64,000 nt of DNA from Haloactinomyces albus (GTDB taxonomy: Bacteria > Actinomycetota > Actinomycetes > Mycobacteriales > Pseudonocardiaceae). The DNA lies in the NCBI RefSeq assembly GCF_031458135.1, contig NZ_JAVDXW010000001.1:434001-498000 (forward strand), given 5' to 3'. This document shows, in pieces, positions 1 through 11,254 of this stretch. The notes beneath the pieces were generated by a model. It did no database searches and was not told where the DNA came from. It was given only the letters and a program-made list of their open reading frames with translations. Within the stretch, counting starts at the first letter, position 1. Every line of letters begins with the position of its first letter. A program made the translations under genes and the position numbers.

Positions 1-825
1 GAAATCGACCCGGTCCGCCACCCCGGCACGCTCGGCAACGGAGCGCAGCCGGGCGATCTCCGGGTCGGAGTCCCAGGTCGACCGTTCGGGGCCGCCCGCG
101 ATGACCAGTTCCGCGTCGGGCACGCCCGCGAGCGCGGTGATGACGGTATCGACACCCTTGCGCTCGACGAGACGTCCGATGCTGAGAATGCGGGGTCGAT
201 CGGTCCGGGCAGTGCTGGGACCTGCGGGAACGAACTTGGTGAGGTCGATTCCACACGGCACCACGGCGGTGCGTTCTTCCGGCACTCCCAGTTCGGTGAG
301 CTCGGAGACCTCGTCCGAGCACGTGGCCACGACGAGGTCGGCGGTGCGGGCCAATTCGGCCTCGATACGTTCGCGCTGAGGCGGGCTCGGGTCCTTGGCC
401 CCCTGGTGTCTGCGTTTGACCCGGCCCAGCGCGTGGAAGGTCTGCAGCACCGGCACGTCGATCCCGGTGAGACCGCGCCGTGCGGCCACACCACTCATCC
501 AGAAGTGTGCGTGCACCACATCCGGCTGCTGCAGTCCCCATCGCACGGACAGGTGATCGCCGAACTCCGCCATGTACGGCAGGAGCTCGTCTTTGGGGAT
601 CGGGCGCGGTGGCCCCGCGGGCACGTGCTCGACCGTGACCCCCGGCGCGGCCTGCACGGTAGCCGGGAGCTCCGTGGAGTCCCGCCGGGTATGCACGACC
701 ACCTGGTGGCCTCTGCGAGCGAGCCCGTTGGCCAGTTCGGCGACGTGGACGTTCTGCCCACCCGCGTCAACTCCCCCGAGCGCCGCGAGCGGACTCGCGT
801 GTTCGGAGACCATGTCGATTCTCAT
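1..825 (-). CDS. GT4 glycosyltransferase, partial (C-terminus beyond the window)
   Basis: This is a retaining glycosyltransferase of the GT-B fold that would transfer a sugar from a nucleotide-sugar donor at the cytoplasmic face. The frame is open for 275 codons from the ATG at 825 to the window edge. The N-terminus carries the glycine-rich acceptor-site signature GGVDAGGQNVHV seen in MshA and sucrose-phosphate-synthase-like GT4 enzymes. Around residues 215-235 a GRLVERKG segment opens the donor-binding domain. The start has a strong AGGAGGTG ribosome site and overlaps the upstream gene's stop by 4 bp (ATGA), so it is the last visible gene of the five-gene operon. The EX7E donor motif would lie in the missing part. 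The acceptor cannot be told from sequence. Confidence 0.9.
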   Translation of the reverse strand, partial: MRIDMVSEHASPLAALGGVDAGGQNVHVAELANGLARRGHQVVVHTRRDSTELPATVQAAPGVTVEHVPAGPPRPIPKDELLPYMAEFGDHLSVRWGLQQPDVVHAHFWMSGVAARRGLTGIDVPVLQTFHALGRVKRRHQGAKDPSPPQRERIEAELARTADLVVATCSDEVSELTELGVPEERTAVVPCGIDLTKFVPAGPSTARTDRPRILSIGRLVERKGVDTVITALAGVPDAELVIAGGPERSTWDSDPEIARLRSVAERAGVADRVDF

Positions 826-1787
826 CGGGACACCTCCTGCAACAGTCCGTCCCACGCGGCGAGGAATCGCTCCAGCGAGTACTTCCTGCGTGCCGCAGCA
901 CGAGCGGCCCGTCCCGCCTGCTCGGCACGTTCGGCATCACCCAGGAACTCCCGGATGGCCCGGGTCAGCACATCCAGCCGGGTGGAGACGACGCCTGCCT
1001 CGGACGGCACCGCCTCGACCGCTTCGGTCGCGGCGAGGGCGACCACCGGCATGCCGAGATGCATCGCCTCCACCAGGGACAGGCCCAATGACGTCCACCG
1101 GAACGGGTGCAGGTAGACCCGCCGGGCGGCCAGTGCGGCATGCATCCGTGGCTGTGGCAGGTCCTCGTGAACCGCGATCCGGTCCCGGCCGATGCCGAAC
1201 CGTGCGGGCACGCCCTCCACGCGCATTCCGTAGAGGTCCATCGGGGCGGTCGATGCGAATGAGGGCAGCAGGTCGGCGCCCGTGATACGGGCACGGCGCA
1301 CCGGCTCGTTGATCACCACGCCGACGCGCTCGAGTTCTCCGGTGTAGCGATGCCCCGGATCGACGATGCCGTGCTCGATCACCGTGGTCGGTGCCCGCCC
1401 GCAGTCCCAGAACATCTCGTTGAAGTGCGTGACGTGGACGAGGGGGATGTCGCTGCGCTCGGCCAGCGGATGTCGCGTACCCGCCACCTCACCGCGCGGG
1501 GTGTCGTGTTCGACGAACACCGCGGGCACGTCGATGCCGGGACGGCGACCGAGCCACTTCTCGGTCAGTTCCACTTCGTGCGGCCGTTGCAGCACGACGA
1601 CGTCGACGTCCTCGTCGCGCAGCTGATCCGGGGTGACCTCGACGGCATTGCTCGGCCAGGTATACGTCAACGCGCGACCGCGCCCGTCGGCGTCCCGATT
1701 CGGTGTCACCGGCACCAGGTACGTGTGGTCACCTCGCACGAAGGCGGTACTCCACGCACCGTGCACGTGCCAGGCCAGAATCCTCAT
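822..1787 (-). CDS. GT4-like glycosyltransferase
   Basis: A 321-residue glycosyltransferase whose C-terminal half has the GT-B donor-site pattern (SLGLSLVEAMHLGMPVVAL, around residues 255-275). The N-terminal half is less typical (HDTPRGE, HVTHFNEMFWD). The open frame extends further upstream, but the ATG at 1787 is preceded by GGAGGCGG and overlaps the stop of the preceding GT9 gene in an ATGA, so I place the start there. Its own stop overlaps the start of the next GT4 gene in the same way. It most likely adds one sugar in the glycan built by this operon. The exact donor and acceptor are unknown. Confidence 0.88.
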   Translation of the reverse strand: MRILAWHVHGAWSTAFVRGDHTYLVPVTPNRDADGRGRALTYTWPSNAVEVTPDQLRDEDVDVVVLQRPHEVELTEKWLGRRPGIDVPAVFVEHDTPRGEVAGTRHPLAERSDIPLVHVTHFNEMFWDCGRAPTTVIEHGIVDPGHRYTGELERVGVVINEPVRRARITGADLLPSFASTAPMDLYGMRVEGVPARFGIGRDRIAVHEDLPQPRMHAALAARRVYLHPFRWTSLGLSLVEAMHLGMPVVALAATEAVEAVPSEAGVVSTRLDVLTRAIREFLGDAERAEQAGRAARAAARRKYSLERFLAAWDGLLQEVSR

Positions 1788-2800
1788 GCCACCGCCTCCA
1801 TCATCGCCTCGACCGCCTCGACGACGTCGCAGGCACCGACCTCGGACAGGCAGGGATGGCCGGGTACGGGACACACCCTGGCCCGGGTGTCGCGGCACGG
1901 CGCGTCCTGATCACCGAGCAGCGTCGTCGCCACGCCGTAGGGCGCCCAGCGCGCAGCCCGCACCACGGGAGCGAACAGCGACACGACCGGGGTCCCCACC
2001 GCCGCGGCGAGATGGGCCGGGCCCGTATTCGGTGCCACGACCACACGGGCCCGGTCGAGCACCGCCGCCAGCTCGGCCATTCCGGTACGCCCTCCGAGAT
2101 CGGTCGCCACGTCACCGGCCACCCGCGCCGTCAGTGCACACTCGCCCGGAGTTCCGGTGACCACGACGCGGTGCCCCTGCGACACCAGCGAGCGCACCGC
2201 GGTGGCACACCGATCGGGTGGCCACTCCCGAGCGGGCACGGAAGCGCCGGGGTGCACCACGACATAACCGGGACCCCCGACCTTGTCCGTGACGTCCGGC
2301 AGGGGGCGACGGATCGCCAGCCGCCCCGAATCTCCGGGCGGAAGCGCGAAACCCGCCGCCCGAGCCAGTGACAGCGCGCGTTCGGGCTCCGGCGGGTCAC
2401 CGTCGACCCTGTGTCGCAGATCCAGCAGCGATCCCGGATAGTCCTCGCTGATCGCCCCGATCCAGTCGATGCCTGCCATGCGCAGTAGCAACGCCAGCGG
2501 CAACGCGGACTGGTGAAACGACGTGAGCACCAGGGCACGGCTCGGACCCACCGCGCGGATGCGGTCGACGAACTCGAGCATCTCGGCCCGCTCCACGGGA
2601 GCGGGTTCCGGATCGATCCACGGCGCGGACCACTCGATGACACTGTCCACACCGGGCAGCAGCTCGGCCGCCGCACGTCCACGGGGGCCTGCCAGCATCA
2701 CCACCGAATCGGCCTCGGCAGCCACCGCACGCACCGCCGGACCCGCCAGCAACACGTCGCCGACATTGTCCAGTCGGGCCACCAGAACCGTGTCGTTCAT
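1784..2800 (-). CDS. GT9 family (ADP-heptose:heptosyltransferase-like) glycosyltransferase
   Basis: A 338-residue protein of family GT9, the family of lipopolysaccharide heptosyltransferases WaaC and WaaF. The N-terminus has the typical ARLDNVGDVLLAGPAVRA. The C-terminal domain has VVHPGAS, AREWP and the donor-binding stretch GPAHLAAAVGTPVVSLFAP followed by RWAPYG. Family knowledge says these enzymes use ADP-heptose-type donors. Actinobacteria lack LPS, so the acceptor here is probably another surface or exported glycan. The heptose-phosphate phosphatase domain in the next gene supports a heptose donor. It sits in the overlapping operon with ATGA junctions on both sides. The ATG at 2800 is preceded by GGAGGGGGG. 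Confidence 0.9.
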   Translation of the reverse strand: MNDTVLVARLDNVGDVLLAGPAVRAVAAEADSVVMLAGPRGRAAAELLPGVDSVIEWSAPWIDPEPAPVERAEMLEFVDRIRAVGPSRALVLTSFHQSALPLALLLRMAGIDWIGAISEDYPGSLLDLRHRVDGDPPEPERALSLARAAGFALPPGDSGRLAIRRPLPDVTDKVGGPGYVVVHPGASVPAREWPPDRCATAVRSLVSQGHRVVVTGTPGECALTARVAGDVATDLGGRTGMAELAAVLDRARVVVAPNTGPAHLAAAVGTPVVSLFAPVVRAARWAPYGVATTLLGDQDAPCRDTRARVCPVPGHPCLSEVGACDVVEAVEAMMEAVA

Positions 2801-4311
2801 CGCGCACCCCCCTCCAGGAGCCGCCCGACCGCGTGCGCGACCGTCCGTGCGACCTCGGCCACCTGCCACGCATCGCGGACCTCCTCGGCCAACGTGCGTG
2901 CGGTCGGTACGAGAATCGCTCGAGCGCCCGCCGCGGCAGCGGCCTGCACATCCGCTCCGGTGTCGCCGATGACCGCACAGGAAGCGACGGGCACACCGAG
3001 AGCACGGGCAGCCCGCTCGATCAGGTCGGGAGCGGGTTTGCGGCAGGCGCACCCGTCGTCCTCACCGTGCACGCACACCTGCCAGGTGCCGAACGGCCCC
3101 AGGTGACGCTCGACCTCGTCGTTGACGGTGCGTACCTGGTCCTCGTCGAGCAGCCCACGGGCCACTCCGGACTGATTGCTGACCACACCGACCGCGATCC
3201 CACGCCTGCGCAGGTTGTCCAGTGCTTCGCGCACTCCCGCGATGGGGTGGACACGCTGCGGATCACCGTTGTAGGGCACGTCGTGGATCAGGGTGTCGTC
3301 CCGATCGAACAGCACCGCTGCCGGAATCTCGCGCCGTGCACGCCTTCTCCCCAGGCGACTGCGCAGCTCACCACGGGTCCGGTGCCAACACGCCACAGGT
3401 GGAATGAGGACACTGGTGACGAGCATCCTGGCGACCTCCGCCGGTGTACGCGGGCCCGGTGCGATACGCCGCCACGCGAATTCGGCGGTCAACGCGCACC
3501 ACACTGCCGCACCCGCCATCGCCACCGGTCGCCTTGTTGCTCGCCCCGCGCCGAGCGCGGTCACGAGCGCAGCGGTCGTCGCGGCCAGGTGCCTGCCGAT
3601 TCGACCGGGTCCCTCCCCCACGCGTCGGCGCCAGTTCCTGCCGTACTTGCGCCGCAGCACGGCGTTGTCGGCGTTGCCCGCCTGTGCACGCACGCTGGCA
3701 AAGAACCCGTCTGCCCGTACCGGGTGGGCGGTTCGCCGCGACCCGGCCACCAACCGGTAGCCCATCAGGCACACGCGGAGCGCGAGATCGGCATCCTCCC
3801 GGTAGGCACGGGGGAATTCCTCGTCGAAGCCGCCCACTCGGGCCAGAACTTCCCGCCGGTAGGCCATGTCCGCGGTGATCCACCAGGCACCGGCCAGTCC
3901 CGCGGTGCCGCGTTCGAGATCGGTCGGCGCGCGATCCCGGGGAAGGGGAACGACGATCCTTCCCTGGCATCCGGCGACGTCTTCATCGGCCGTCCCGAGG
4001 TCATGCTGCAATGCCCGGGCCCATCCCGGTTCGGGGACGACATCGTCATCGAGAAAGACCACCCACGGCGTCTCGGCCGACTGCCTGCCGACATTGCGTG
4101 CACCCGCCGGTCCCCGCCCCCCGGAACGCACGACTCGGGTCGCGACCGTGCCGGTCGGCAGCAGCAAGGCACCGTCCGCCTCGGGGCGATCGTCGACCAC
4201 GATGATCTCCTCCGGTGCCGGTGCTGCCTCCAGCGCCGCCAGGAGTGCACCGAGACTGGCGCGGCCCGTGGTGGGCACCACGACCGTGTACTGCACCGCG
4301 TCCGCGCTCAT
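2797..4311 (-). CDS. GT2 glycosyltransferase fused to GmhB-like HAD phosphatase
   Basis: A 504-residue two-domain protein. Residues about 7-230 are a GT-A family 2 glycosyltransferase, with VVDDRPE near 38-44 and the metal-binding DDD at 88-90. Residues about 240-310 are hydrophobic and basic and may touch the membrane. Residues about 330-500 are a HAD-IIIA phosphatase like D-glycero-D-manno-heptose-1,7-bisphosphate phosphatase. The nucleophile motif is D336-R-D338-D-T-L, then VVSNQSGVARG. The zinc ligands of that family are C413, H415, C421 and C423, and GDTGADV starts at 449. The protein could both make heptose-1-phosphate and transfer a sugar. The start at 4311 has GAGGAGT and overlaps the carbamoyltransferase stop. 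The fused arrangement is unusual. Confidence 0.9.
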   Translation of the reverse strand: MSADAVQYTVVVPTTGRASLGALLAALEAAPAPEEIIVVDDRPEADGALLLPTGTVATRVVRSGGRGPAGARNVGRQSAETPWVVFLDDDVVPEPGWARALQHDLGTADEDVAGCQGRIVVPLPRDRAPTDLERGTAGLAGAWWITADMAYRREVLARVGGFDEEFPRAYREDADLALRVCLMGYRLVAGSRRTAHPVRADGFFASVRAQAGNADNAVLRRKYGRNWRRRVGEGPGRIGRHLAATTAALVTALGAGRATRRPVAMAGAAVWCALTAEFAWRRIAPGPRTPAEVARMLVTSVLIPPVACWHRTRGELRSRLGRRRARREIPAAVLFDRDDTLIHDVPYNGDPQRVHPIAGVREALDNLRRRGIAVGVVSNQSGVARGLLDEDQVRTVNDEVERHLGPFGTWQVCVHGEDDGCACRKPAPDLIERAARALGVPVASCAVIGDTGADVQAAAAAGARAILVPTARTLAEEVRDAWQVAEVARTVAHAVGRLLEGGAR

Positions 4312-5942
4312 GCCGTACTCCTCGGCCTGCGAACGACGAAGGGCCCGAGCACGAGAACGTCGATGGGAGAGGCCCCGAAGCATTCGAGCGCATCGACCGG
4401 ATCGTCGACCATGGGTCTGCCCGCGGTGTTGAAGCTCGTGTTGATCACGGCCGGGATTCCCGTTCTGGCGGCGAATGCGTCGAGCAACCGTGCCGTCAGG
4501 GGTTCCTCCGCCCGCTCCACGGTCTGGATCCGAGCGGTGCCGTCCACATGCACGACCGCGGGGATGCGCTCCTGCCACTGCGGGTCCACATCGTGCACGA
4601 ACAGCATGTACGGGCTGGGCAGTGGTCCTCGGCTGAAGATCTCCGAAGCCCGTTCGGACAACACCATCGGAGCCACGGGCCGAAACTGTTCGCGCCCCTT
4701 GACGTCATTGAGGCGTTCGACATTGTCGGCATGTCCGGGATGCGCCAGCAGCGAACGGTGTCCGAGGGCGCGGGGGCCGAACTCGCTGCGTCCCTGAAAC
4801 CAGCCCACCGTCTCATTGCGCGCGACCGCTTCCGCGGCCTCCTGCGCCACGTCAGCCGGTCTCTCGTAGGGGATGCGCGCGGCGTCGAGCCGCGCGGCGA
4901 TCTCGGCGTCGTCGAAACCACGTCCGAGATCCGCCCCCGGCATGGGCCGAACCCTCTCCCCGGATTCGGCGGCCAGATGCAGTGCACCGCCCAGGGCCGT
5001 GCCCGCATCGCCTGCCGCGGGCTGGACCCATACCTCGTCGAACGGTCCCTCCTCGGCAAGGCGGGTGTTGGCCACGCAGTTCAACGCGATTCCCCCCGCC
5101 AGCGTCAGCCGCCGGCGACCGGTCTGGCGATGCAACCATCCCGCCAGTTCGAGCAGCACTTCCTCCAGTCTTGCCTGGACACTGGAGGCCAGTTCGGCGT
5201 GCTCGTCGCCGAGCTCCTCTCCGGGAGCTCGGCGCGGCGCCCATCGGGACCAGTCGATCGGCGCGATGTCGAAACCACCCACGTCACTGCGCACCAGCTC
5301 GGCGAAATCCGGCAGGAAACGCGGCTTCGCGTAGGAGGCCAGCGCCATCACCTTGTACTCGTCGCTGGAGCGGCGGAAACCGAGATGCTCGGTCAGCTCC
5401 TCGTACATCAGTCCGAGGGAGTGCGGCAGCCGCTGGCTTGCCAGCACGTGCAGGCGGCCGTCGCGGTACTCCCCCGCCAGCGCCGACGTGCACTCGCCGC
5501 GCCCGTCCGCGGTGAGCACGGCCGAATCGCCGAACGGAGCGGCGAGGCCCGCCGAAGCGGCATGGGCGACGTGATGCGGGACGAACCGCACGTTGTCCGT
5601 GGCCAGCCCCGGCAGTGCGGTCGCCAGGAATTGCGGGGCTCGGGTGGCGTATGTGGTGCGCAGTTCCTCCCACCCGGGGTCGAGTCCCGCCAGCTCGTGC
5701 TCGACGAGCTGCGGATCGTAGGAGTAGGCGACCGCGTCCAGGTCCGCAGGTCGTATCCCGGCCCGACGCAGACACCAGTGGGCGGCTTGCTCGGGCAGTT
5801 CCCATGCCGAGAAGGGCACCGGGCTCTTGCCGTGCTTGCGCCGGGTGAACCGTTCCTCTTCGGCCGCGGCGACCACCTCGCCGTCGACGACGAGAGCGGC
5901 GGCCGGATCGTGGAAGATCGCGTTGATACCGAGGATATGCAC
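4308..5942 (-). CDS. Carbamoyltransferase (NodU/TobZ family)
   Basis: A 544-residue O-carbamoyltransferase that would move a carbamoyl group from carbamoyl phosphate, via carbamoyl-AMP, to a hydroxyl of a sugar or other product. The N-terminus GINAIFHDPAAALV followed by AAEEERFTRRKHGK matches the Kae1-like domain of NodU/TobZ. Near residues 350-370 is the C-terminal-domain motif GRSEFGPRALGHRSLLA. I chose the GTG at 5942 because GGGAGGC lies 5 bp upstream and the protein then begins at the conserved VHILGIN. The longer ATG start at 5987 adds unconserved residues. It is the first gene of the ATGA-linked operon, so the glycan or glycosylated product is probably carbamoylated. Confidence 0.92.
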   Translation of the reverse strand: MHILGINAIFHDPAAALVVDGEVVAAAEEERFTRRKHGKSPVPFSAWELPEQAAHWCLRRAGIRPADLDAVAYSYDPQLVEHELAGLDPGWEELRTTYATRAPQFLATALPGLATDNVRFVPHHVAHAASAGLAAPFGDSAVLTADGRGECTSALAGEYRDGRLHVLASQRLPHSLGLMYEELTEHLGFRRSSDEYKVMALASYAKPRFLPDFAELVRSDVGGFDIAPIDWSRWAPRRAPGEELGDEHAELASSVQARLEEVLLELAGWLHRQTGRRRLTLAGGIALNCVANTRLAEEGPFDEVWVQPAAGDAGTALGGALHLAAESGERVRPMPGADLGRGFDDAEIAARLDAARIPYERPADVAQEAAEAVARNETVGWFQGRSEFGPRALGHRSLLAHPGHADNVERLNDVKGREQFRPVAPMVLSERASEIFSRGPLPSPYMLFVHDVDPQWQERIPAVVHVDGTARIQTVERAEEPLTARLLDAFAARTGIPAVINTSFNTAGRPMVDDPVDALECFGASPIDVLVLGPFVVRRPRSTA

Positions 5943-6095: not shown

Positions 6096-7088
6096 TCAGG
6101 ACCCGGCCGTGGGCAGTCGAACACGGTCCGAAGCGGTGTCGGCACCCAGCTGCCCGGCGAACCAGTGGATGGTGCGCAGCAGGCCCTCGCGCAGCCCGAT
6201 CTCCGGTTGCCAGCCGAGCTGTTCGCCGGCCACGGTGATGTCCGGGCAGCGCCGCTGGGGATCGTCGACGGCTCCGACCGTGGAGTCGATCGGAGAGTCA
6301 CTGCCCACCAGCTCCCGGATCATCTCCGCGAGTTGCCGTACCGAATGCTCGTGCGGGTTGCCGATGTTGACCGGTCCCTCGGACTCGGAATCGGCGAGTG
6401 CCAGCAGTCCGCGCACCGTGTCGGAGACGTAGCACACCGACCGGGTCTGCTCGCCCGAACCGGCCACCGTCAGCGGCTCCGCGCGGAGAGCTTCGCAGAC
6501 GAACGTGGGCACCATACGGCCGTCATCCGGATGCATCCGGGGGCCGTAGGAGTTGAAGATGCGGGCGATGCCGGTGCGCGTTCCCCGTTCGCGGCGATAG
6601 GCGCAGGTCAGCGCTTCGGCATAGCGTTTCGCCTCGTCGTAGACCGCGCGGGGACCGACCGGATTGACATTGCCCCAGTAGCTCTCCCGCTGCGGATGTT
6701 CCAGCGGGTCACCGTAGACCTCACTGGTGGAGGCGAGGACGAAGCGGGCGCCCTTGTCGGCGGCCAGCTCCAGCGCATGCAGGCACCCCTGGCCGCCGAC
6801 CAGCATCGTCTCGATCGGGAGTCGCTGGTAGTCCTTCGGGGAGGCCGGTGAAGCCAGATGCAGCACGAGATCCACCTCGCCCGCTACCGACAACGGTCGA
6901 GTGACATCGCATTCCACCAGCCGAAACAGGGGATTCCTGGCACACTCTTCGACATTGCGGCGGCTGCCGGTGATGAGGTTGTCCAAGCAGACGACCTCGG
7001 TTCCCCGGGACAGGAGCTGCTCGCAGAGATGCGAACCCAGAAAGCCGGCCCCTCCTGTCACGACGGCACGCTGAAAACCGGTGTGCAC
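6096..7088 (-). CDS. NAD-dependent sugar epimerase/dehydratase, UDP-glucuronate decarboxylase-like
   Basis: A 330-residue extended short-chain dehydrogenase acting on nucleotide sugars. It shows the NAD-binding GGAGFLGSHL at residues 12-21, ASTSEVYG around the catalytic serine/threonine, the YDEAK active-site pair, and RIFNSYGPRM. The stretches SPASPKDYQRLP and GEQTRSVCYVSDTV resemble UDP-glucuronate decarboxylases (UDP-xylose synthases) more than dTDP-glucose dehydratases. The start is a GTG at 7088 with GAGAGGA 8 bp upstream. It lies 153 bp upstream of the carbamoyltransferase on the same strand and probably supplies a pentose or 4-keto sugar donor for the operon. The substrate is inferred. 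Confidence 0.88.
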   Translation of the reverse strand: MHTGFQRAVVTGGAGFLGSHLCEQLLSRGTEVVCLDNLITGSRRNVEECARNPLFRLVECDVTRPLSVAGEVDLVLHLASPASPKDYQRLPIETMLVGGQGCLHALELAADKGARFVLASTSEVYGDPLEHPQRESYWGNVNPVGPRAVYDEAKRYAEALTCAYRRERGTRTGIARIFNSYGPRMHPDDGRMVPTFVCEALRAEPLTVAGSGEQTRSVCYVSDTVRGLLALADSESEGPVNIGNPHEHSVRQLAEMIRELVGSDSPIDSTVGAVDDPQRRCPDITVAGEQLGWQPEIGLREGLLRTIHWFAGQLGADTASDRVRLPTAGS

Positions 7089-7215: not shown

Positions 7216-8136
7216 GTGCGGGTGCTGATCACCGGCTGGCCGAGTTTCCTCCACGGCGAGGCGACGGCGGGCGATGTCGCTGCGATGGAACGGGTCACCG
7301 CCGAGGTGGCCGCAGCGGGCATACCGTGCGAGAGCGCATGGAGTCCGGGTTTCGCGCCGGACGCGCTGAGTCTGGACGAGGCGTCCTGTACGGACTACAC
7401 CGATGTGGTCTTCGTCTGCGGTCCCGCGCACGGTCGGCAAGTACGAGAACTCCATCGGTGCTACGCACGGTGTCGGCGCCTGGCGATCGGTGTTTCGATC
7501 GTGGATCACCACGATCCCGCCGTCACCGGCTTTCACGCCGTGCTCGCACGGGACGGCCCGGGCACGGAACCCACTCGGGATATCGCCCTCGGCAGGGGAG
7601 CACCCCGTGCGCCGGTGGCCGGGGTGGTGCTGGCTCCCGGACAGCCGGAGTATTCGGGGAGACGCCTGCACGACAGCGTGCACGAGTGCCTCGGTAGCTG
7701 GCTCGCACGGCTGGACTGCGCCCCACTTCCGCTGGATACCCGGCTGGACAGCCGGGACTGGCGGCTGTGCTCCACTCCCGAGCAGTTCACCTCCCTGATC
7801 GCACGGGCCGATGTGGTGGTGACCTCCCGGCTGCACGGGCTGGTTTTCGCTCTGCAGCAGGGGGTTCCCGCCCTCGCGGTCGACCCGGTCTCCGAAGGGG
7901 GCAAGGTCACCGCTCAGGCGGCGGCATGGGACTGGCCCGCAGTCGTTTCGGCCGAGAACCTGGTCAACGGCGAGGAAAGCACCTCGGCCCTGCTGGATCG
8001 ATGGTGGTCCTGGTGTCTTTCCCCCGAAGCCCGTGCCCTCGCAGGCAGGAGAGCCGAAACCGGGGCGGATCCCAGTGCGACCTCGTTGTCGAAACTGGTG
8101 GAGCTACTGCGTCGCGCGCCGATTACCTCCCCCTGA
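7216..8136 (+). CDS. Polysaccharide pyruvyl transferase family protein
   Basis: A 306-residue protein of the polysaccharide pyruvyltransferase family, which adds pyruvate ketals to sugar residues of exopolysaccharides and cell-wall glycans. The diagnostic C-terminal segment is TSRLHGLVFALQQGVPALAVD followed by GGKV, around residues 200-235. The N-terminal half is less conserved. The GTG start has AGGAGGT 5 bp upstream. It is divergent from the epimerase and heads a short rightward unit with the GAF protein and a GT2. Pyruvylation would add negative charge to the glycan, fitting the carbamoylation and heptose genes opposite. The acceptor is unknown. Confidence 0.85.
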   Translation: MRVLITGWPSFLHGEATAGDVAAMERVTAEVAAAGIPCESAWSPGFAPDALSLDEASCTDYTDVVFVCGPAHGRQVRELHRCYARCRRLAIGVSIVDHHDPAVTGFHAVLARDGPGTEPTRDIALGRGAPRAPVAGVVLAPGQPEYSGRRLHDSVHECLGSWLARLDCAPLPLDTRLDSRDWRLCSTPEQFTSLIARADVVVTSRLHGLVFALQQGVPALAVDPVSEGGKVTAQAAAWDWPAVVSAENLVNGEESTSALLDRWWSWCLSPEARALAGRRAETGADPSATSLSKLVELLRRAPITSP

Positions 8137-8789: not shown

Positions 8790-9718
8790 GCCACGGGGCG
8801 CAGCAGCAACAGCAGCACGCCCCCGCCCAATCCGCGATGCGGGAATCGGCGGCACGCACCACCGTCGTGATCGCCACCCGCAACCGGGTGGCGCAGCTGG
8901 TGACCACACTGCGACAGCACCGGAAGTGCACGCCGGATTCGCCGATCATCGTGGTGGACAATGCCTCCACCGACGGCACCGCCCACACCGTCCGGCACGA
9001 GTTTCCCCACGTGCGGCTGCTTCGTACGCCACGCAACATGGGCGCTGCGGCGAGAAACCTCGGCGTGTTGTGCGCACGGACTCCGTATATCGCGTTCAGC
9101 GACGACGATTCATGGTGGGAAGCGGACTCACTGCAGCGCACCGAGCAAGCACTGGATGCCCACCCCCGACTCGGTTTGATCGCCGCGCGCACCCTGGTCG
9201 GTCCCGACAACAGGCCGGACCCGATCACGGAGGCAATGGCCCACAGTCCGTTGCACAGTGACCGTGCCCTCCCCGGGCCACCGATATTGGGTTTTCTGGC
9301 GTGTGCGGCCGCCGTCAGACGTGCTGCGTTCCTCGAGGTCGGCGGCTTCAGCTCGCTGCTGTTTTTCGTCGCGGAGGAAAGACTGCTGTCCTATGACCTG
9401 GCTGCCGCCGGCTGGTCCCTGGCCTATCTGGACACCGTGGTCACCCACCATCACCCCGCCGCGGATCGCCCCGACAACCAACAACGCCACAGCACCGAAC
9501 GGCGCAACCGCGCCCTGATCGCTTGGATGCGGCGACCGCGGCGCGAGGCCATCGCCGCGACGCGAGCACTGCTTCGCGAATCCCCGAACAGCACCACGGC
9601 ACTCACGGCACTCGGGGGACTCCTGCGGCGCCTGCCCCGAGCGCTCGCACAGCGCCACACATTGCCTGCCGAGGTCGAGCAGCAGATCGCTGCACTGCGC
9701 ACAGCTCGCCCGGAGTGA
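8786..9718 (+). CDS. GT2 family glycosyltransferase
   Basis: A 310-residue inverting glycosyltransferase of family 2. It has VVIATRNRVAQL near residue 27, VVDNASTDGT near 58, NMGAAARNLG near 88 and the metal-binding SDDDSWWEAD near 108. An acidic ED-like VAEERLL motif follows near 200. The N-terminus starts with a run of glutamines (AQQQQQH). An AGGAGGAACG ribosome site precedes the ATG, which overlaps the stop of the GAF gene by 4 bp, so the two are translationally coupled. With the pyruvyltransferase it belongs to the surface-glycan locus. No membrane segments are evident. Confidence 0.9.
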   Translation: MSHGAQQQQQHAPAQSAMRESAARTTVVIATRNRVAQLVTTLRQHRKCTPDSPIIVVDNASTDGTAHTVRHEFPHVRLLRTPRNMGAAARNLGVLCARTPYIAFSDDDSWWEADSLQRTEQALDAHPRLGLIAARTLVGPDNRPDPITEAMAHSPLHSDRALPGPPILGFLACAAAVRRAAFLEVGGFSSLLFFVAEERLLSYDLAAAGWSLAYLDTVVTHHHPAADRPDNQQRHSTERRNRALIAWMRRPRREAIAATRALLRESPNSTTALTALGGLLRRLPRALAQRHTLPAEVEQQIAALRTARPE

Positions 9719-10378: not shown

Positions 10379-11254
10379 GTGTTCTACCACACCAAGCGCC
10401 TGCAGTTCGAGGCCAAGCCCGAGCAACCGGATCCCGTTTACGCGCACAAGCTGCAGGAGCTCATCGGCGGCGCGTGGGGTGAGATGACGGTGACCATGCG
10501 GTACCTGTTCCAAGGCTGGAACTGCCGCATGGAAGGCAAGTACAAAGACATGCTCATGGACATCGCCACCGAGGAGATGGGCCATGTCGAAATGCTCGCG
10601 ACCATGGTCGCACGGCTACTCGAAGGTGCTCCCTCGGACAAGACCACCGCAGCGGCGGAGAACGACCCGGTCATGGGCGCGATCATCGGCGGGATGGATC
10701 CGCAGCAGGCGATCGTCGGTGGAGGTGGAGCCACACCCAGCGACTCCAACGGTTACCCGTGGAACGGCCGGTACGTCATCGCCAGCGGCAATCTGCTCGC
10801 GGATTTCCGCTCCAATGTCACCGCCGAATCGCAGGGACGGCTGCAAACCGCGCGTCTGTACCACATGACCGATGACCCGGGTGTGAAGAACATGCTCAAG
10901 TTCAACCTCGCCCGCGACACCATGCACCAGAACCAGTGGCTGGCCGCCATCGAAGAGCTCAAGGCCGACGGAGTCGAGGATACCGTGGTGCCCAACGAGC
11001 TGTTCGACGAGGAATACCGCGAGCACGCAAGCACCCTGTGGCATCTCTCCGACGGGGACTCCTCGCAGGAAGGGCGCTGGGCAAGCGGCACCGCGCCCGA
11101 CGGTGACCACGAATTCAGCTTCGTGTCCAACCCCGAGCCGCTGGGCGGCCCCGCCAGTGCTCCGAAGCCACCCGAACATCTCTACGGGACGACCTGGAGC
11201 GAGGAGACCATGCTCCGCAAGGCCAAGAACACCGTCAAGGACAAGCTCACCTGA
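10379..11254 (+). CDS. Manganese catalase
   Basis: A 291-residue non-haem catalase with a dinuclear manganese centre that dismutates hydrogen peroxide in the cytoplasm. Family features include the N-terminal MFYHTKRLQF, LQELIGGAWGEMTVTMRYLFQ with a glutamate ligand, ATEEMGHVEMLATMV with the E-x-x-H ligand pair, and a later DTMHQNQW segment. Length is normal for the family. The GTG start is preceded by AAGGGA. It follows the small membrane protein by 13 bp and overlaps the 3' end of the convergent DUF1990 gene by 8 bp. Confidence 0.95.
   Translation: MFYHTKRLQFEAKPEQPDPVYAHKLQELIGGAWGEMTVTMRYLFQGWNCRMEGKYKDMLMDIATEEMGHVEMLATMVARLLEGAPSDKTTAAAENDPVMGAIIGGMDPQQAIVGGGGATPSDSNGYPWNGRYVIASGNLLADFRSNVTAESQGRLQTARLYHMTDDPGVKNMLKFNLARDTMHQNQWLAAIEELKADGVEDTVVPNELFDEEYREHASTLWHLSDGDSSQEGRWASGTAPDGDHEFSFVSNPEPLGGPASAPKPPEHLYGTTWSEETMLRKAKNTVKDKLT

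Follow-up and report, generated by a model that had tools for sequence, protein, structure and literature searches.

Heptose is usually tied to the lipopolysaccharide of Gram-negative bacteria. What, then, does the Gram-positive actinobacterium Haloactinomyces albus make with an operon in which a heptose-bisphosphate phosphatase domain, a heptosyltransferase-family protein and a carbamoyltransferase are encoded together? The operon crosses the left edge of a stretch of 64,000 nucleotides (positions 434001-498000 of contig 1, NZ_JAVDXW010000001.1, of the 5.24-Mb genome), which as a whole is called the window below; its left flank (L004, −19999 to 0 in window coordinates) was also examined. By gene order and sequence identity it is orthologous to an operon of Streptomyces coelicolor known as cwg ("cell wall glycan"), and we propose that it probably makes a short heptose-containing envelope glycan.

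An earlier note on the window, made from the letters alone, had described five leftward genes, for a carbamoyltransferase (CmT), a GT2-GmhB fusion, a GT9 and two GT4 proteins, joined by four ATGA overlaps. This is borne out by the coordinates, by the Pfam and NCBIfam domains and by recurrence in relatives: at 4311, 2800, 1787 and 825 the downstream ATG each time overlaps the upstream TGA. The operon extends leftward of the window with genes for GmhA, HldE, an SDR protein, a second GT9 and UDP-glucose dehydrogenase (UGDH); gmhA and hldE, for which the note had suggested looking there, both lie just outside the window. Gene coordinates, set by hand from all open frames, and domains, assigned via Pfam and NCBIfam, gave the following features.

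5942-4308, minus strand: O-carbamoyltransferase CmT (NodU/TobZ type), GTG start; PF16861 E=1.2e-65, PF02543 E=1.3e-51
4311-2797, minus strand: GT2-GmhB fusion; GT2 at about residues 1-320, GmhB-type heptose-1,7-bisphosphate 7-phosphatase at about 330-495
2800-1784, minus strand: GT9a, heptosyltransferase-family; PF01075 E=2.6e-24
1787-822, minus strand: GT4a, ATGA start; PF00534 E=2.5e-09
825 to −389, minus strand, crossing the left edge of the window: GT4b; nearest NCBIfam model MshA, under its cut-off
−412 to −1017, minus strand, outside the window: GmhA; start picked by ribosome-binding site
−1014 to −2429, minus strand, outside the window: HldE, kinase plus nucleotidyltransferase
−2457 to −3146, minus strand, outside the window: SDR
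−3143 to −4114, minus strand, outside the window: GT9b; PF01075
−4111 to −4926 (L004:15074-15889), minus strand, outside the window: short UGDH-like gene
−4978 to −6297, minus strand, outside the window: full UGDH
−17968 to −18879, minus strand, outside the window: displaced counterpart of cwg gene 12
6096 to 7088, minus strand: UDP-glucuronate decarboxylase (UDP-xylose synthase, UXS), counterpart of the first cwg gene
7216 to 8136, plus strand: polysaccharide pyruvyltransferase-family gene, divergent neighbour; PF04230 E=1.6e-11
8837 to 9718, plus strand: GT2, displaced counterpart of cwg gene 11; best match is the gene-11 position in loci L160, L164 and L166

In passages of PMC6767563 the cwg operon of S. 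coelicolor (SCO6179-6190) is described as a target of sigma-E that comprises 12 genes and is induced by vancomycin. The published 29-base cwg promoter was searched, with up to three mismatches and the reversed sequence as control, in 392 genomes of the genus to which G144 belongs. The pattern matched 9 times and the control 0 times, and because the cwg promoter matches there the genus was taken to be Streptomyces. In genome G564 (locus L160) the exact promoter stands 147 bp ahead of the GTG start of UXS, the same as the published spacing, and is followed in one direction by UXS, CmT, GT2, GmhB, GT9, GT4, GT4, GmhA, HldE, GT9, GT2 and GT2; going by the promoter match, L160 is presumably S. coelicolor or a close relative. 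The first ten of these genes encode proteins 50-67% identical to those of the window operon. UXS and then CmT come directly behind the promoter in six of the nine matches, and in six loci the gene that follows the cwg promoter first shares 60-63% identity with the UXS of the window.

All 12 cwg genes have counterparts in the analysed genome. The first ten functions, in the order UXS-CmT-GT2-GmhB-GT9-GT4-GT4-GmhA-HldE-GT9, are collinear apart from one fusion and the inserted SDR gene, whereas genes 11 and 12 are displaced: the former corresponds to the GT2 gene at 8837-9718 (49% identity in L160, 49-53% over L160, L164 and L166), the latter to the gene at −18879 to −17968 (59%). The GT2 at 8837-9718, or its sister GT2, gave matches at E<1e-20 in 38 of the 80 loci introduced below. 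Unlike cwg, the window operon has GT2 and GmhB fused and carries SDR, UGDH and short UGDH-like genes in addition; in L160 GT2 and GmhB are two genes, readable as overlapping by ATGA, a junction that the fusion lacks. Directly shown are the genes present, with their domains and motifs, the synteny, and the identity to the operon behind the cwg promoter. The statement of the earlier note that the product could not be matched to a known pathway is not supported.

Are the overlaps more than chance? The locus set consisted of the best 80 of at least 460 confirmed GT2-GmhB relatives, hence chosen for resemblance to the fused protein, and a junction was counted in a same-strand pair when an in-frame start near the projected start overlapped the upstream stop by 4 bases. 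Such an overlap was present in 52 of 66 CmT/GT2-GmhB pairs (34 as ATGA), 72 of 77 GT2-GmhB/GT9 pairs (39 as ATGA), 44 of 56 GT4/GT4 pairs (32 as ATGA) and 33 of 56 GT9/GT4 pairs (19 as ATGA; 39 of the 56 are adjacent). The HldE/SDR pair, which does not overlap in the analysed genome, served as yardstick (20 of 52). Overlaps of 4 bases are by themselves ordinary in high-GC operons; chance was rejected as an explanation of the four ATGA overlaps because the same junctions recur in relatives. Further left, GTGA overlaps join GmhA to HldE and SDR to GT9b, and an ATGA overlap joins GT9b to the short UGDH-like gene.

That the operon provides an activated heptose, as the earlier note had suggested from the phosphatase domain next to a GT9 protein, gained support from GmhA and HldE in the same operon, GmhB fused to GT2, and two GT9-family proteins. 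The note had counted a lack of heptose kinase/adenylyltransferase genes and a match to a described antibiotic cluster as arguments against it: HldE is present, and the matching operon, cwg, is not an antibiotic cluster. The closest solved structure to GmhA is phosphoheptose isomerase 5i01 (E=1.7e-43), and its 15 solved matches begin with 12 phosphoheptose isomerases, followed by two DiaA entries. HldE scores 276 bits on the NCBIfam HldE model across its entire length, its kinase domain being nearest to the heptose 7-phosphate kinase 4e84. In the GmhB part of the fusion DRDDT, CxH...CxCRKP and GDTGAD, which we take to be GmhB-type motifs, are intact, and the second to fourth solved matches are D,D-heptose bisphosphate phosphatases, with 4pnh second; the hydropathy profile of the fusion has no peak. 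As judged from these assignments, the gene set predicted for ADP-D,D-heptose is complete within one operon. For the ADP-L,D-heptose route, which requires HldD, no such 6-epimerase over the cut-off was found in the genome (11 matches, the best with 120 bits against a cut-off of 274.6), and the predicted donor is therefore D,D-heptose. Passages of PMC7725333 report ADP-L,D-heptose, by strict criteria, in Gammaproteobacteria only, one false negative being admitted.

The nucleotide used by HldE was looked at in its terminal sequence LEDGYSTS..., which has Tyr at position 5 of the (F/L)xxGxSTT-type motif. Arg at this position is linked to use of CTP and UTP in PMC11461863, though it is not strictly required; with Tyr here, ADP-heptose is predicted to be the main product. 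Among 70 relatives position 5 is Tyr in 27, Arg in 26 and His in 14, with no match in 3.

Both GT9 proteins carry PF01075, which places them in the fold family of the lipopolysaccharide heptosyltransferases. Among solved structures GT9a matches the GT9 protein 3tov (E=2e-08) and then WaaC (6dfe/2gt1, E=7.4e-07), and GT9b matches WaaF (1psw, E=2.8e-14). The second sugar donor is suggested by the gene upstream of CmT, which the earlier note had called a nucleotide-sugar epimerase. Its best solved structure is UDP-glucuronic acid decarboxylase 1 (4gll, E=6.7e-103, 348 bits, as compared with 123 bits for the best epimerase), which corrects the note: the gene is a UDP-xylose synthase, and HldD, tried as an identity for 7088-6096, was rejected on the same ground. 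Since UGDH is present together with UXS, UDP-xylose would be supplied. The short UGDH-like gene beside the full one lacks a match to the C-terminal UDP-binding domain and was seen in 2 of the 80 loci; it is possibly a degenerate or repurposed dehydrogenase.

The nearest solved structures to CmT are 7xb6, the novobiocin enzyme 9s2t, TobZ and GdmN, the last three of which are presumably antibiotic-tailoring carbamoyltransferases. A precedent on heptose is found in Pseudomonas, where HepII of the lipopolysaccharide core carries a carbamoyl group at O-7, credited in passages of PMC8005017 and PMC7168646 to the putative carbamoyltransferase WapO (PA5005), whose gene adjoins those of heptosyltransferases. 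By analogy CmT would carbamoylate the glycan, possibly on heptose.

From these data we infer all catalytic steps, the donor and acceptor specificities, the carbamoylation site and the surface location in the following route. GmhA would convert sedoheptulose 7-phosphate to D,D-heptose 7-phosphate, the kinase domain of HldE would phosphorylate this to the 1,7-bisphosphate, and the GmhB domain fused to GT2 would strip off the 7-phosphate, so that GmhA, HldE and GmhB together would yield ADP-D-glycero-D-manno-heptose. UGDH and UXS would form UDP-glucuronate and UDP-xylose, the latter as second donor. On the acceptor, heptose would come from the two GT9 enzymes and xylose or other sugars from those of the GT4 and GT2 families, a short envelope glycan thus being assembled by five to seven glycosyltransferases. 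CmT would cap a hydroxyl, plausibly on heptose, and the pyruvyltransferase may attach a ketal. The pyruvyltransferase-family gene, which the note had correctly placed on the opposite strand, lies near the operon in 17 of the 80 loci and in 3 of the 7 stretches retrieved from the presumed Streptomyces genus.

How widespread is the operon? The comparison of gene order across relatives, which the earlier note had recommended, revealed synteny over many actinobacterial genera. The best 80 loci come from Saccharopolyspora, Nocardia, Amycolatopsis, Mycobacterium, Actinomadura, Blastococcus, Cellulomonas, Kribbella and Nocardiopsis, among others, and also from contigs of metagenome-assembled genomes labelled Acidimicrobiales, Solirubrobacterales, Candidatus Dormibacteraeota and Candidatus Methylomirabilota; the contigs of the last two have two or three operon genes on short loci, and mis-binning is possible. 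Within the fetched loci, genes outside of which would go unseen, GT9a was found in 76 of 80, GmhA and HldE in 70 each, CmT in 68, GT9b in 67, GT4b in 66, GT4a in 63, UXS in 54, SDR in 52 and UGDH in 30. Of the loci, 57 spanned 20 kb or more, and 37 of these had all eight core genes. In a class sample of 296 genomes, chosen independently of the cluster, CmT (searched at E<=1e-120) had an orthologue in 61, all at 1.9e-209 or below, a strong HldE (domain II at E<1e-40) was found in 76, and 57 had both; GT2-GmhB or its parts gave matches in 82 at E<=1e-45. CmT and HldE lay within 20 kb on one contig in 52 of the 61. The Fisher p for the two genes in this sample is 2.6e-39, an illustrative value since related genomes are not independent. 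The cluster is patchy, being present in some and missing in other genomes of the genera g31 and g60.

Several findings weigh against a heptose-containing envelope glycan made by a cwg-type operon. No heptose-related NCBIfam equivalog cut-off was reached (HldE 276 versus 521, its nucleotidyltransferase domain 177 versus 181.5, GmhA 169 versus 276, GmhB 107 versus 178), and the activities of the heptose enzymes therefore stay inferred. Both GT9 proteins are far under such cut-offs as well, and membership in this sequence family does not prove ADP-heptose as their donor. Among solved structures the GmhB part comes closest to 3l8h, an unassigned HAD hydrolase. The nucleotidyltransferase domain of HldE is nearest to 5x9q (E=1.7e-33), a structure annotated as a putative cytidylyltransferase, which leaves ATP uncertain as co-substrate. 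In the class sample a strong HldE is lacking in 4 of the 61 genomes with CmT, and HldE occurs without CmT in 19. Nine of the 57 long loci have no close CmT, eight of these nine coming from Blastococcus or Geodermatophilus, so that carbamoylation is not universal.

The same holds for export and for regulation. Among 40 listed recurrent-neighbour clusters viewed by eye, with no family search on the clusters, no flippase, polymerase, lipid-carrier transferase or ligase was recognised, flippase and polymerase genes being among those for which the earlier note had suggested looking; the neighbour clustering is weak, its gene caller having given 19 GmhA as compared with 70 by tblastn. The carbamoylated surface glycan predicted in that note is plausible, its surface location being unproven because no export or ligation family was seen in this weak look. 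Two of the promoter matches, with three mismatches each (L162, L163), have no cwg-like gene. The 300 bp in front of UXS and of CmT contain no strict AAC-spacer-GTC sigma-E element, and each has one loose motif, 0.45 and 0.38 being expected in shuffles. Whereas the sigma-E promoter belongs to cwg, none above chance was seen here, and we therefore speak of an orthologous operon, not of a sigma-E regulon member; sigE-cseABC is stated in a passage of PMC6767563 to be absent outside Streptomyces. At a further promoter match, with one mismatch (L161, G461:C1:6066000-6085000), only GT2 and a GT4b remnant are left, the operon seemingly decaying; this too counts against the proposal.

Could the enzymes serve another end? 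MshA- and sucrose-phosphate-synthase-type enzymes use soluble phosphorylated acceptors. The highest-scoring model for GT4b is MshA (231 bits, cut-off 462.5), and a sucrose-phosphate-synthase model matches it as well (110 bits). The operon might then build not a wall glycan but a heptoside that stays in the cytoplasm or is secreted, with inositol phosphate, another sugar phosphate or a similar small molecule as acceptor; that no export or ligation genes were recognised in the weak look by eye also fits. We consider this unlikely, since a small glycoside would hardly need five to seven glycosyltransferases and the orthologous cwg is regulated with wall genes. It is more doubtful that the operon belongs to a specialised-metabolite cluster of the septacidin or hygromycin B kind, with ADP-heptose going into a small molecule that CmT tailors. 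The actinobacterial uses of heptose named in the literature passages are these antibiotics, and TobZ, GdmN and the novobiocin enzyme, with their antibiotic-tailoring role, are near CmT; yet no scaffold biosynthesis genes were seen in the operon or, by eye and with no cluster database searched, in the recurrent-neighbour families, synteny extends over many actinobacterial genera, unlike that of an antibiotic cluster, and the orthologue in Streptomyces responds to cell-envelope stress. Very improbable, finally, is that the heptose-type enzymes act on another phosphosugar, no heptose being formed, and that the GT9 proteins take another donor. The sub-cut-off scores and a genome without HldD over the cut-off would fit this idea, but three functionally linked enzymes are grouped together, the leading matches of GmhA and the second to fourth of GmhB are heptose enzymes, and a missing HldD means merely that the D,D epimer is retained.

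The heptose-containing envelope glycan, which we prefer, can be compared with known systems. The inner-core cluster for Pseudomonas lipopolysaccharide shares heptosyltransferases and a carbamoyltransferase with the window operon, O-7 of heptose as carbamoyl site being known for Pseudomonas (passages of PMC8005017, PMC7168646); its core, however, has L,D-heptose on lipid A-Kdo and heptose kinases, whereas the window operon has no such kinase and the genome no HldD over the cut-off. In the septacidin and hygromycin B pathways, according to literature passages, ADP-heptose is made in an actinobacterium, but antibiotic scaffold genes were not seen in the window operon. Actinobacterial tridomain NDP-heptose synthetases (passages of PMC11573728) combine isomerase, kinase and nucleotidyltransferase as do GmhA and HldE, which in the window operon are two genes with a GTGA overlap. 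In 4 of 68 loci (L089, L106, L109, L111) GmhA and HldE stand in a single open frame, likely tridomain heptose synthetases of the same cluster.

The cwg operon was already known; what we would add, without a claim of priority, is the predicted assignment of heptose, xylose and carbamoyl groups, and its breadth. It points chemists to sugars worth seeking, offers clean gene removals in a laboratory strain, and ties a stress operon of actinobacteria to the puzzle of NDP-heptose enzymes in Gram-positive bacteria. Going further, it is conceivable, with the odds somewhat against it, that much of the Gram-positive Actinomycetota makes an O-carbamoylated D-glycero-D-manno-heptose/xylose envelope oligosaccharide that is not lipopolysaccharide and is raised by vancomycin in Streptomyces, and that the bacteria making it contain a pool of ADP-heptose such as ALPK1 senses in Gram-negatives. 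ALPK1 is the ADP-heptose sensor that responds to Gram-negative bacteria; if the proposal is true, it could detect these bacteria also.

More than one strong HldE nucleotidyltransferase domain was found in 24 of the 76 genomes having one (e.g., G088, G101, G215, G250 and G315), and several of these carry the two copies in opposite orientation, separated by about 10 kb, which hints at a second heptose cluster. In the window, shortly past the pyruvyltransferase and GT2 genes, a manganese catalase gene is located at 10379-11254 on the plus strand (PF05067, E=1.7e-101).

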